A stretch of DNA of 64,000 nucleotides from Xanthocytophaga flava (GTDB taxonomy: Bacteria; Bacteroidota; Bacteroidia; Cytophagales; 172606-1), in assembly GCA_030068525.1 (NCBI GenBank), contig JASJOS010000003.1:607446-671445 (forward strand). Reading direction: 5' to 3'. Positions within the stretch are counted from its first letter, which is position 1. Each line of letters opens with the position of its first letter. The notes under the pieces were generated by a model. It saw only the letters and a program-made list of their open reading frames with translations, was not told the DNA's origin and did no database searches. Made by a program: the position numbers and the translations under genes. Positions 11,845-40,156 of the stretch are shown here, piece by piece.

Positions 11845-12023
11845 AATAGTAATAGTTTATACTTTTTCACATGATTCCAGACAGTACCTGCCAAAATCAT
11901 GTTACACTAAAGACAAAATACAGACATGGGATTACATCTATAATATATGAATCACCCTGTTTTTTCTCCAATGTTACATTGCTTTTATCAAATAAACAAT
12001 GGACACGATTCGATTGAATTCGC

Positions 12024-12031
12024 TACTTTTG
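12024..12031 (+). promoter_or_regulatory. -7 element for the NamZ-family gene
   Basis: TACTTTTG matches the Bacteroidota -7 consensus TAnnTTTG exactly. It lies downstream of the in-frame ATG at 11999 and 46 bases before the ATG at 12077, so it argues for the later start. A -33 TTG at the usual distance was not found. Confidence 0.5.
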
Positions 12032-12076
12032 TATAAATGGCGTATTTTCCCGCATCTCAAATCATTGTATTTTCCT

Positions 12077-13309
12077 ATGTTTTCATTGTCGTTTATTCCG
12101 TACCAACCGCTCCTGACATGCCTGCTTATCTTAACTACAGCCTGTCATTCGCCATCTGTTAGTTCGCAAACTTCTGTCAAAAAACAATCTACTACTGTAA
12201 GTCCCAAACCTGCTCTATCCCTTCAGATAGGAGCAGAACAATTCAGGGAATATATAGCAGACTTAAAAGGAAAGAGAGTGGCACTTGTGGTAAATCATAC
12301 CTCTTTGGTAGGCAAAACCCATCTGGCAGACACACTGTTGAGCCAAAAAATAAATATTGTAAAGATATTCGCACCTGAACACGGGTTTCGGGGTGATGCA
12401 GATGCAGGCGAACATGTAAGTAATACAATAGACAAAAAAACAGGTCTACCACTTATTTCTATATACGGAAAAAACAGAAAGCCATCTCCTGAACAACTCA
12501 AGGACGTGGATGTAGTCATATTTGATATTCAGGACGTAGGAGCACGATTTTATACCTATATCAGCACTATGCATTATGTGATGGAAGCGTGTGCAGAAAA
12601 CAAAAAAAAGTGTCTGGTACTAGATCGCCCAAACCCTAACGGACATTATTTTGACGGACCTGTACTAAAACCTGCCTTTAAGTCATTCATTGGTATGCAC
12701 CAAATTCCTGTAGTGCATGGCCTCACAGTAGGTGAACTGGCTCAGATGATCAATGGTGAAGGATGGCTTTCCAACAATGCCAAATGTGATCTGAAAGTAA
12801 TACAAGTAAAAGGCTATACTCATCAAACTCCTTATGTATTACCTGTACGCCCTTCTCCTGGTTTACCCACTGAAGTGTCTATTCGTTTGTATCCTTCTAT
12901 CTGTTTCTTTGAAGGAACTACTATTAGTCTAGGTCGTGGAACTGATTTTTCATTTCAGGTAGCAGGAGCTCCCAATCCTATCTATGGATCTTTTACATTC
13001 ACACCCAAAACAACTGCGATTGTTAAGAATCCACCTCATGAAAACCAATTATGTTATGGTAAGGATTATCGGCAGGATACTACACGTCATTTGACCCTAA
13101 AGTATCTTCTTGACTTTTACAACATGACTCCGGATAAAAGCAAGTTCTTTCTTACTACCAAACACTTTGATTTGCTGGCAGGAAGTGAGGAACTGAAAAA
13201 ACAGATTCTAGCAGGTATGACTGAAGAACAAATCCGGGCTACCTGGCAAAGTGATTTACAGAAATATGCCACTATGCGTAAGAAGTATCTTTTGTATCCG
13301 GATAAATAA
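12077..13309 (+). CDS. Exo-beta-N-acetylmuramidase NamZ family (DUF1343) protein
   Basis: This 410-aa protein belongs to the DUF1343/NamZ (GH171) family. Characterised members release N-acetylmuramic acid from the non-reducing end of peptidoglycan fragments. Family blocks in order are VNHTSLVGKTHLADTLL, IFAPEHGFRGDADAGE, DIQDVGARFYTYISTM, VLDRPNPNG, VHGLTVGELAQMINGEGWL, and RPSPGLPTEVSIRLYPS followed by FEGTTISLGRGTD. A hydrophobic N-terminus ending LTTAC suggests a lipoprotein, although Thr rather than Leu sits at the -3 position. The frame opens at 11999, but the -7 promoter element inside it supports the ATG at 12077. Several other cell-wall hydrolases are encoded within 25 kb. Confidence 0.9.
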   Translation: MFSLSFIPYQPLLTCLLILTTACHSPSVSSQTSVKKQSTTVSPKPALSLQIGAEQFREYIADLKGKRVALVVNHTSLVGKTHLADTLLSQKINIVKIFAPEHGFRGDADAGEHVSNTIDKKTGLPLISIYGKNRKPSPEQLKDVDVVIFDIQDVGARFYTYISTMHYVMEACAENKKKCLVLDRPNPNGHYFDGPVLKPAFKSFIGMHQIPVVHGLTVGELAQMINGEGWLSNNAKCDLKVIQVKGYTHQTPYVLPVRPSPGLPTEVSIRLYPSICFFEGTTISLGRGTDFSFQVAGAPNPIYGSFTFTPKTTAIVKNPPHENQLCYGKDYRQDTTRHLTLKYLLDFYNMTPDKSKFFLTTKHFDLLAGSEELKKQILAGMTEEQIRATWQSDLQKYATMRKKYLLYPDK

Positions 13310-13407: not shown

Positions 13408-13603
13408 TGACCAGAATTATGTTCATCTGCATGTTTGACCGGAATTCTGGTCAAACAAAAAAATTATCAGGATTCTGCTAATTCATGGCCGTGATCAATA
13501 TTCTGATATTTTTCAAATTTGATCAGTATTGTGATAGTTTTTTCTTCTGAGTAGAAATCAGATTTTAAGTGAATAGAAAAAAATTTGAGCGGAACTCCAA
13601 TCA
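13408..13603. repeat. 28-bp-pitch array of degenerate 18-bp palindromes (array 1)
   Basis: Units start at 13408, 13436, 13464, 13492, 13520 and 13548, exactly 28 bases apart, and a seventh at 13586 is displaced by 10. The best copy is TGACCGGAATTCTGGTCA (13436), a near-perfect palindrome. Others are TGACCAGAATTATGTTCA (13408), TTATCAGGATTCTGCTAA (13464), TGATCAATATTCTGATAT (13492), TGATCAGTATTGTGATAG (13520), TGAGTAGAAATCAGATTT (13548, weak) and TGAGCGGAACTCCAATCA (13586). Units are separated by 10 bases, several of them A- or T-runs. The array fills the gap between the convergent NamZ and recO genes. A second array with the same pitch lies at 39919-40104. The gap from 13310 to 13646 holds nothing else but the NamZ terminator. 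Confidence 0.8.
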
Positions 13604-13646: not shown

Positions 13647-14336
13647 TTAACCAACCAACATTTCACGTAAAACGGAAACAGAACGCAATTCACCAAAATT
13701 ATCTACATGTAACCGATAAAACAGAAGCACATATTCAAGAATACGTCTTCTCTGACCATTGGTAAGAGGTACATGTTTATGATAGGGAGATTCAATTAGC
13801 TTATCAAATCGTTCTTCATCTTCTTTGGCGTAATTCAGTAACTGAAACTCTTCTATCTGAGCAAATACCTCTCGTGCTTCGGAAGGTGCAAAACCAAGAT
13901 ATTGTGCAAAACTTAACAGAAACTGAATAGGGAAGTTTTCATAATGTTCTGTTTGTTGATCCAGATACAGAATTGATTGGTACAAAAATTCAAACAATGG
14001 TTCGTTACTGCTTTCTTCTTTCAGAGCTTTGTTAAAAACTTCACTCATAAATAAAGCAATGCCTGACTTCATGAAATTATAGGGTACATCTGTAAGTGGA
14101 TCACAACATTTGATCTCTGAAAGCCTCATAATGTTTCCGCCCTCACGATGATATACTACCAGATCAAGTAATGTAAGTGGCTGAAACAATGCCATCTTGT
14201 TTTTTCCTTTTGAACTTCTTGCTCCATTTTCTATATAGGTTTGAAGTCCAAACTCCTCTGTATAAATCTTTATAATAATGGAAGTTTCCTTAAATCGAAT
14301 ATAGTTGATGACAATGCCACGAGTCTTAAAAAGCAT
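13647..14336 (-). CDS. recO: DNA repair protein RecO
   Basis: The 229-aa protein matches RecO, the RecFOR-pathway mediator that helps load RecA onto SSB-coated DNA and anneals strands. The N-terminal OB-fold is visible as 'TRGIVINYIRFKETSIIIKIYTEE' split by turns, then 'YIENGARSSKGKNKMALFQPL' (typical 'G.r....... q..' loop). The helical C-terminal domain carries CCDPLTDVPYN and LFEFLYQSILYLDQ. The zinc-type Cys cluster of some RecO proteins is absent, as is common in Bacteroidota. It lies downstream of porZ on the same strand (124-base gap). No intrinsic terminator is visible after its stop, where repeat array 1 begins 44 bases away. Confidence 0.9.
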   Translation of the reverse strand: MLFKTRGIVINYIRFKETSIIIKIYTEEFGLQTYIENGARSSKGKNKMALFQPLTLLDLVVYHREGGNIMRLSEIKCCDPLTDVPYNFMKSGIALFMSEVFNKALKEESSNEPLFEFLYQSILYLDQQTEHYENFPIQFLLSFAQYLGFAPSEAREVFAQIEEFQLLNYAKEDEERFDKLIESPYHKHVPLTNGQRRRILEYVLLFYRLHVDNFGELRSVSVLREMLVG

Positions 14337-39828: not shown

Positions 39829-39867
39829 AAACGCCTGTGATCAAATGAGATCACAGGCGTTTTTTTA
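39829..39867 (+). terminator. Strong terminator of the OmpA-family gene
   Basis: Fourteen-base perfect arms AAACGCCTGTGATC (39829-39842) and GATCACAGGCGTTT (39849-39862) run into a T-tract. Confidence 0.92.
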
Positions 39868-39918: not shown

Positions 39919-40104
39919 TGCGGTGAACTCACGGCAGTTAGTTGATTGCGGTGAATTCCGATCAAAAAATATTTTGCCGTGAGTTAGGCGCAAATAAAAA
40001 AATGATTTGAATTCTGGTCAAAATAAAGTTTACGGTGAATTATTTGTAAAAATGAAAGTGATCGGAGTTCCAGTCAGCAACCATTTTGATCAACATAGTA
40101 AATA
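39919..40104. repeat. 28-bp-pitch array of degenerate 18-bp palindromes (array 2)
   Basis: Seven units start at 39919, 39947, 39975, 40003, 40031, 40059 and 40087, every one exactly 28 bases from the last. They read TGCGGTGAACTCACGGCA, TGCGGTGAATTCCGATCA, TGCCGTGAGTTAGGCGCA, TGATTTGAATTCTGGTCA, TACGGTGAATTATTTGTA, TGATCGGAGTTCCAGTCA and a weak TGATCAACATAGTAAATA. Spacers of 10 bases are A/T-rich. Several half-sites recur in array 1 at 13408-13603. The gap 39811-40156 between the convergent OmpA-family and cyclase genes holds only this array and the terminator at 39829. Confidence 0.85.
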
Positions 40105-40156
40105 ATTCCTCAGAAAACTGTCACTGCTGTGAAAAAAGCGCAAAGCAAAAATCACT

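Follow-up and report, generated by a model that had tools for sequence, protein, structure and literature searches.

Phased arrays of 18-bp dyads behind genes of Xanthocytophaga flava resemble the upstream regions of a family of 434-like repressor genes

Two phased arrays between convergent genes

The window analyzed here, a 64,000-nucleotide stretch of Xanthocytophaga flava DNA, contains two arrays of short dyads, each in a gap between convergent genes (Table 1). Array 2 ends 14 bp from the stop codon of the cyclase gene, and its first six dyads start at 39919, 39947, 39975, 40003, 40031 and 40059, a spacing of exactly 28 bp, as stated in the initial annotation of this DNA; the seventh unit placed there at 40087 is weak (four of nine pairs complementary), and in the chain model the last unit is 40125-40142, 66 bp past 40059. 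The dyads of array 1 start at 13408, 13436, 13464, 13492, 13520 and 13548, followed after 38 bp by one at 13586. The two arrays have the same pitch and related units, as had been proposed, including an exact match (TGACCAGAA) between the right half of the unit at 40003 and the left half of that at 13408. The accompanying view that they are two independent loci is wrong, as both are members of a family of dispersed related copies.

Table 1. Features of the window at the two arrays
Feature	Position	Strand	Remark
NamZ-type exo-beta-N-acetylmuramidase gene	11999..13309	+	flanks array 1
Orphan operator-type array 1, weakly type II-like	13408..13603	.	dyads; rank 1 in the sequence-agnostic scan
RecO gene	13647..14336	-	convergent flank of array 1
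PD40 / OmpA-family protein gene, 753 aa	37549..39810	+	flanks array 2
Intrinsic-terminator-like hairpin and T run	39829..39867	+	3' of plus-strand gene, 5' of array 2
Orphan operator-type array 2, type III	39919..40142	.	18-bp dyads spaced 28 bp apart, last unit displaced
Unit 1 of array 2	39919..39946	.	point at which the orthologous G002 array is exactly 28 bp shorter (a unit gained or lost)
Putative cyclase gene (PF04199), 297 aa	40157..41050	-	convergent flank of array 2

Between the 9.49-Mb genome G000 and G002, the second genome of the genus, the six-base loop of the hairpin at 39829-39867 is inverted on an unchanged stem. Unit 40003-40020 has in G002 a left half that differs by three adjacent bases plus one and an unchanged right half, and unit 40031-40048 carries changes there at position 2 and also at the mirror position, 17. 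Relatives found by way of the OmpA-family protein had at most 44% identity and were not used.

The 28-bp phase

A PWM scan gave 22, 17, 14 and 11 pairs of sites at distances of 28, 56, 84 and 112 bp, respectively, and at most four at any other distance up to 120 bp, while its reversed control gave a single pair at 28 bp. The PWM was trained on neighbors 28 bp apart, and the independent test is therefore a palindrome scan, in which any 18-bp palindrome is accepted and five equal steps are sought at each of 42 pitches (19-60 bp) over the whole 671,445-bp contig. At a threshold of 27, the pitch of 28 bp gave nine clusters, compared with a mean of 1.5 and a maximum of five for the other 41 pitches, and it was also the highest at thresholds of 25 (30 vs. 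at most 26) and 26 (14 vs. at most 12). Array 1 ranks first and array 2 thirteenth among all positions of the contig. The phase is hence favored with no unit boundaries picked by eye, and chance, which had been judged unlikely on first reading, is excluded by a scan that is blind to the sequence of the sites. Tandem Repeats Finder (score 30) reported neither window array, and a simple tandem repeat (minisatellite) of near-identical head-to-tail copies was rejected on this silence.

A dispersed array family in two genomes

A ten-class half-site model finds 21 arrays with 141 units on the contig and none when the sequence is read backwards, and scaling this count by length gives an estimate of ~300 arrays per genome. 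Arrays consist of 2 to 14 units of 9 + 9 bp with an A/T-rich spacer of ~10 bp, and 64 of 74 sampled arrays contain a displaced step (38/39, 66/67 or 94/95 bp), which amounts to an extra 10-11 bp, or about one helix turn. In an alignment of 35 copies of type III (types follow the repressor subfamilies described below), the order of units is shared and the outermost units, which are inverted relative to each other, mark sharp ends. Other hairpin-like repeats, TCCTTCTGGAAGAA-like and GGGCGATTGGCAGATCGCCC-like, were seen by eye to adjoin type II arrays at L001, L005 and L006 (about 1101-1460).

The initial annotation had called for a test of covariation between left and right halves. Compared with within-array shuffles of 594 units from the 74 arrays, the halves agree in excess at positions 2 and 3 (z 3.6 and 7.7), such agreement is absent at positions 4 and 6, and it is negative at positions 5, 7 and 9 (z -2.7, -3.5 and -7.5), all of these z values being descriptive because related copies are non-independent. 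The value at position 9 concerns the center bases of the dyad, which agree less often than in the shuffles over all sampled arrays.

An 18-bp seed with up to three mismatches matched 206 places in G000 and 238 in G002 (five in the reversed control of each) and two in G001, a 72% complete genome of the same genus (control four). None of the other 57 relatives came near the counts of G000 and G002; the largest count was that of G003 (20 vs. 4 in the control), where the listed places are out of 28-bp phase, and some genomes of the same order lay above their controls (G048, 16 vs. 1; G023, 10 vs. 2; G049, 9 vs. 2; G040, 7 vs. 0). With this seed, which is type II-like, G001 and five genomes of the same family, of which G003 is the highest, had 2-20 matches, compared with 3-8 for the control. 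The type III core occurs at 66 places in G000, and none of 394 further genomes from the phylum has more than three; one to three matches were found in 15 of them, and arrays were absent from the five such loci inspected. No chain of the G000 model, which is tuned to G000 half-sites, was found in 391 kb from five same-family genomes, an amount of DNA so small that the palindrome scan has little power on it. Viral contigs gave one exact core match, which is not in an array, and none to a two-unit pattern, and plasmids gave none to a type II array query. Arrays were also absent from a viral contig bearing a 37% identical relative of the repressor and from G555, where 39% identical relatives lie inside 256-aa frames. 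Arrays and close repressor relatives were thus found in the same two genomes, G000 and G002, and a search of the literature returned no title or abstract describing such arrays.

Repressor-like genes and their upstream arrays

Some arrays adjoin a small gene of about 75-80 codons that belongs to an XRE/434-repressor-like family. Two type II copies contain an HTH_3 domain (PF01381; 27.6 and 26.8 bits, cut-off 23), while a type IV copy matched HTH_19 alone, at 21.3 bits and below its cut-off. When the family profile was compared with solved structures, the top row was chain DBP48, and the 434 repressor (1per, E 5e-6) and SinR were among the nearest. The PHROG matches include phage transcriptional repressors, several phage matches at about 36% carry the annotation 'repressor', and the named database relatives are from Xanthocytophaga agilis, X. 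flava and Cytophagaceae bacterium DM2B3-1. A protein search located the family at 17 places in G000, 18 in G002 and, weakly (28-38% identity), three in G001, and at none in five same-family genomes.

G000 and G002 together give 35 places, of which 27 were examined upstream and eight, weak or short ones, were left out. As in an autoregulated operator, phased dyads lie beside the start of the repressor's own gene, clearly at 21 of the 27 loci and weakly at two (L304 and L307), and in 21 of these 23 the last unit is 31-53 bp from the start codon; at L300 and L311 the main chain of the model ends 108 and 121 bp away. By comparison, an array ends within 60 bp upstream of one in 511 called genes of contig C33. 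The four loci with no phased array are the fragment L314, the diverged copies L312 and L313, and L310, where dyads are present and the 28-bp phase is absent. Each genome has about 10-13 array-linked repressor genes (about ten in G000, a dozen in G002), and each linked array has about 5-13 phased dyads. In a palindrome scan summed over eight subfamily representatives, 28 bp was the first of 42 pitches (170, followed by 160 at 42 bp; mean over pitches 143, sd 6.6), and its rank was poor in five loci taken singly (L306, 12; L309, 5; L304, 17; L307, 26; L310, 22).

The half-sites vary by subfamily while the 28-bp pitch recurs. They are TGACCATAG/TGACTGGAA in subfamily II, TGCGGTGAA/TGCGCATAA in III, TAACYGGAR in IV, TGCGGTRTA-like in V and TGAACAGCA/TGAACGGTA in VI. 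Base 3 of the half-site is mainly A in II, IV and VI, in which the recognition helix has QGN, and mainly C in III and V, which have QSN, a relation that rests on few independent cases and has exceptions in L310 (QSH), which has A, and in some TGA halves of type III and V arrays.

Among the neighbors listed, those common to many repressor loci are of prophage or satellite type: an excisionase-like HTH protein, a DNA helicase, an AAA protein, a nuclease, a VapE-type primase and a phage amidase. Loci L316-L335 and C33:158001-170000 look like prophage- or satellite-like islands, several copies per genome, with a similar order of excisionase-like HTH, helicase, AAA protein, nuclease, array, repressor and amidase. 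The repressor copy at L315 in G002 has several stop codons, and a phased type IV-like array still lies upstream of it. A scan of the neighbors for defense systems gave scattered matches with no constant partner.

Assignment of the orphan copies

When the DNA around arrays was searched for the repressor, it was found at only eight loci (C33:164 kb, L110, L132, L136, L213, L224, L225 and L232) and was absent from the window and from the 22 orthologous pairs considered below. In local alignments, array 2 is most like the array that precedes repressor III (L295; 72% over 149 bp), and array 1 has its best match, a weak one, in the array of repressor II (L290; 69% over 96 bp, 42.5 bits). The repressor III array also aligns with the orphans at C33:432026 (76% over 264 bp) and C33:546038 (75% over 262 bp). 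Of 81 array entries, among which four contig arrays are entered twice and a few are repressor-linked, 37 are assigned by best match to type III, 32 to II, five to V, four to IIIb and one to IV, one is degenerate and one has no match. It is these matches to repressor upstream regions, which lay outside the window, that were missing from the first interpretation, and the latter is supported in part.

Placement relative to genes

With genes called by a simple ORF rule (100-codon cut-off), 12 of the 21 contig arrays lie in convergent gaps, nine in tandem gaps and none in divergent gaps, compared with 23, 58 and 19% expected from gap lengths (p 9e-4 for convergent, 0.02 for divergent), so that the convergent placement first noticed at the two window arrays holds for the contig. 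The repressor-linked array 164158 is counted as convergent because its 81-codon repressor gene falls below the cut-off, and with it removed the orphans alone are convergent in 11 of 20 cases. Half of the contig arrays lie within 64 bp (the median) of the closest stop codon. A larger sample, which is biased by the search seed, has 28 of 73 arrays in convergent, 41 in tandem and four in divergent gaps, the background gaps being 22, 49 and 30, respectively. In convergent gaps a crude finder predicts intrinsic terminators at 7 of 21 array-facing gene ends and at 10 of 32 ends without an array, and the earlier idea that the array replaces a terminator is unsupported. The polarity of type III arrays is co-oriented with co-directional genes in 13 of 18 cases, a weak alignment (p 0.10).

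Conservation between G000 and G002

The refuting observation named in the initial annotation, a relative in which the gap is devoid of phased units, was not encountered in G002, which keeps array 2 minus exactly one 28-bp unit and has a phased array of seven units in the array 1 gap, at the same gene pair (G002:C12:139073-141414). Each of the seven contig arrays that could be compared also exists in G002, one of them as a three-unit remnant, and no insertion differences between the two genomes were seen in comparable blocks. An exact one-unit difference was also found at L184.

From 27 orthologous array pairs, five (L110, L131, L142, L144 and L182) were dropped for poor alignment, after their identity had been seen and before changes were counted, leaving 22. 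The units were defined from G000, a bias that runs counter to a finding of constraint, and the G002 loci were also picked by matching the core, which could favor some units. Among the position classes fixed in advance, 5 of 285 G/C sites at dyad positions 2/17 had changed, compared with 129 of 1857 intergenic ones (p 2e-4); for A/T the counts were 14 of 50 at these positions and 124 of 3454 in intergenic DNA. The preset positions 1, 3 and 8 with their mirrors were close to intergenic DNA (A/T 23/875, p 0.18; G/C 11/132, p 0.48). By consensus base, the changes were T1 4/310, G2 5/285, A3 4/195, C3 3/115, G7 6/217 and A8 4/288. Two pools chosen after this table had been seen gave 14/617 for G2 + C3 + G7 (p 4e-6) and 12/793 for T1 + A3 + A8, compared with 124/3454 for intergenic A/T (p 0.002). 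The middle positions and the spacers change at a rate equal to or above that of intergenic DNA, and whole arrays diverge more than their flanks (6.6 vs. 4.1%). In array 1, which is outside the 22 pairs, T1, A/C3 and A8 were unchanged (0/36), and G2 and G7 had changed at 2/9 and 2/11 sites.

Discussion

The data show dyads of a recurring geometry that are linked to a repressor family, have half-sites specific to its subfamilies, are placed at gene ends and are constrained at position 2. We interpret arrays 1 and 2 as repressor-less copies of the region upstream of a repressor-family gene, in which a row of sites bound by repressor dimers would block or insulate transcription at gene ends, and the probability that we give to this reading is about 0.53. 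The conservation of outer half-site bases in the orphans makes binding of the dyads by the repressors likely; each 18-bp dyad would be bound by one dimer, and dimers at the 28-bp pitch could build up a protein-DNA barrier by which transcription is stalled or insulated where the flanking genes end. The repressors, judging from the position of their arrays, would regulate their own genes. A roadblock or insulator role of the orphans is suggested by analogy with phage stoperators and C.Kpn2I, and against it count the findings that terminators are neither in excess nor lacking at array-facing ends and that the type III polarity follows co-directional genes only weakly, where an L5-like stoperator would be oriented. 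The avoidance of promoters would also be given by neutral insertion filtered by selection. In a more elaborate form, which we regard as unlikely, domesticated phage-satellite repressors would supply ~300 repressor-bound insulators behind genes, with the mix of left and right half-sites serving as a combinatorial code that homo- and heterodimers of a dozen paralogs would read.

It is possible, though less likely, that the orphans are instead selfish or passively spread non-autonomous repeats (MITE-like) with no host role that survive behind genes, where harm is least. The long dispersed copies with sharp ends, the mutual inversion of the outermost type III units and the divergence of arrays beyond their flanks would fit such repeats, and the absence from divergent gaps would fit purifying filtering. 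However, position 2 and the pooled consensus bases are conserved beyond intergenic DNA, even though positions 4-6 and the spacers are not; recent movement is not seen, since all seven comparable arrays are shared with G002 (one as a remnant); and no mobilizing gene was found, the RAYT-type family Y1_Tnp being unmatched in G000 and G002. Conserved positions of a binding type would also be expected of decoys that soak up repressors and set their free concentration, thereby tuning the switch of the prophage-like islands, and an estimated 300 arrays facing 10-13 array-linked repressor genes per genome would suit such a function. Decoys need no particular place, yet the contig arrays lie at a median of 64 bp from a stop codon, and we consider this explanation improbable.

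Placement at gene ends is likewise compatible with arrays that act as RNA, in which tandem hairpins, as in REP/BIME, would stabilize or terminate transcripts, and 20 type III copies do fold more strongly than shuffles when taken as single sequences (mean z of -3.2 on one strand and -2.8 on the other). No common fold nevertheless emerges when 35 copies are aligned (energy 0) and there is no marked strand difference, on which grounds a structured RNA element was rejected for type III copies; heterotypic units break the stems, G-U mismatches (289) outnumber A-C mismatches (207) in the polarity of type III but not exclusively, and the pitch is the same in front of repressor genes, all of which makes a role as RNA very improbable. 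Plasmid centromere systems have a small DNA-binding protein gene with an upstream array, an organization like that seen here, and together with the genome-wide spread of regular arrays this raises the idea that the arrays serve as anchors in folding or partitioning the chromosome and not in transcription. The proteins scanned among the neighbors include no ParA/ParM-type family and the arrays are biased to gene ends, and there is hardly any likelihood that anchoring is their role.

The sites of phage repressors are normally confined to the phage, while here the host chromosome carries, behind its genes, dispersed arrays of the sites of a whole repressor family, with some bases constrained. If they are bound, they would represent a way of ending or insulating transcription by means of proteins, as well as a natural experiment in the joint change of repressor and site, with many paralogs, their own arrays and one recurring geometry. 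Repressor-bound arrays of this kind offer a direct test of whether repressors of mobile elements become chromosome-wide regulators.

Comparison with known systems

Several known systems share features with these arrays. The operators of CI-type repressors of 434, lambda and P22 comprise two or three dyads, and resemble the arrays in that a small HTH protein of the 434 family, here with the HTH_3-type domain of an XRE/434-type repressor, has dyads beside its own gene; they differ from the about 5-13 phased dyads, the protein of 75-80 aa with no further domain and the ~300 orphans found here. REP/BIME elements are, like the orphans, dispersed palindromes behind genes, but they have neither the strict 28-bp phase nor half-site alphabets tied to a repressor family, and an assignment to REP and RAYT was rejected as Y1_Tnp has no match in G000 and G002, while the other six of the eight genomes searched have matches. 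The C proteins of restriction-modification (R-M) systems are short HTH regulators with one or a few boxes at their own gene, as with the repressors here; to our knowledge there are no dispersed arrays for C proteins, and no constant linked R-M pair is seen at the array loci. One such controller protein, C.Kpn2I, is reported to act as an elongation roadblock (PMC6237814). A further parallel is provided by the stoperators of Cluster A (L5-like) mycobacteriophages, of which many copies lie in short intergenic spaces away from the repressor promoter, with a motif that diverges with the repressor (PMC6550527, PMC9283540). The arrays similarly present many sites of a phage-repressor type away from the repressor promoter and a motif that changes with the repressor. 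Stoperators, however, are single asymmetric 13-bp sites in the phage genome that are bound by a monomer and oriented with transcription, and the co-orientation of type III arrays is 13/18 (p 0.10). The arrays described here are instead symmetric 18-bp dyads, with conserved bases in both halves, that form 28-bp arrays on the host chromosome with a weak trend in orientation.
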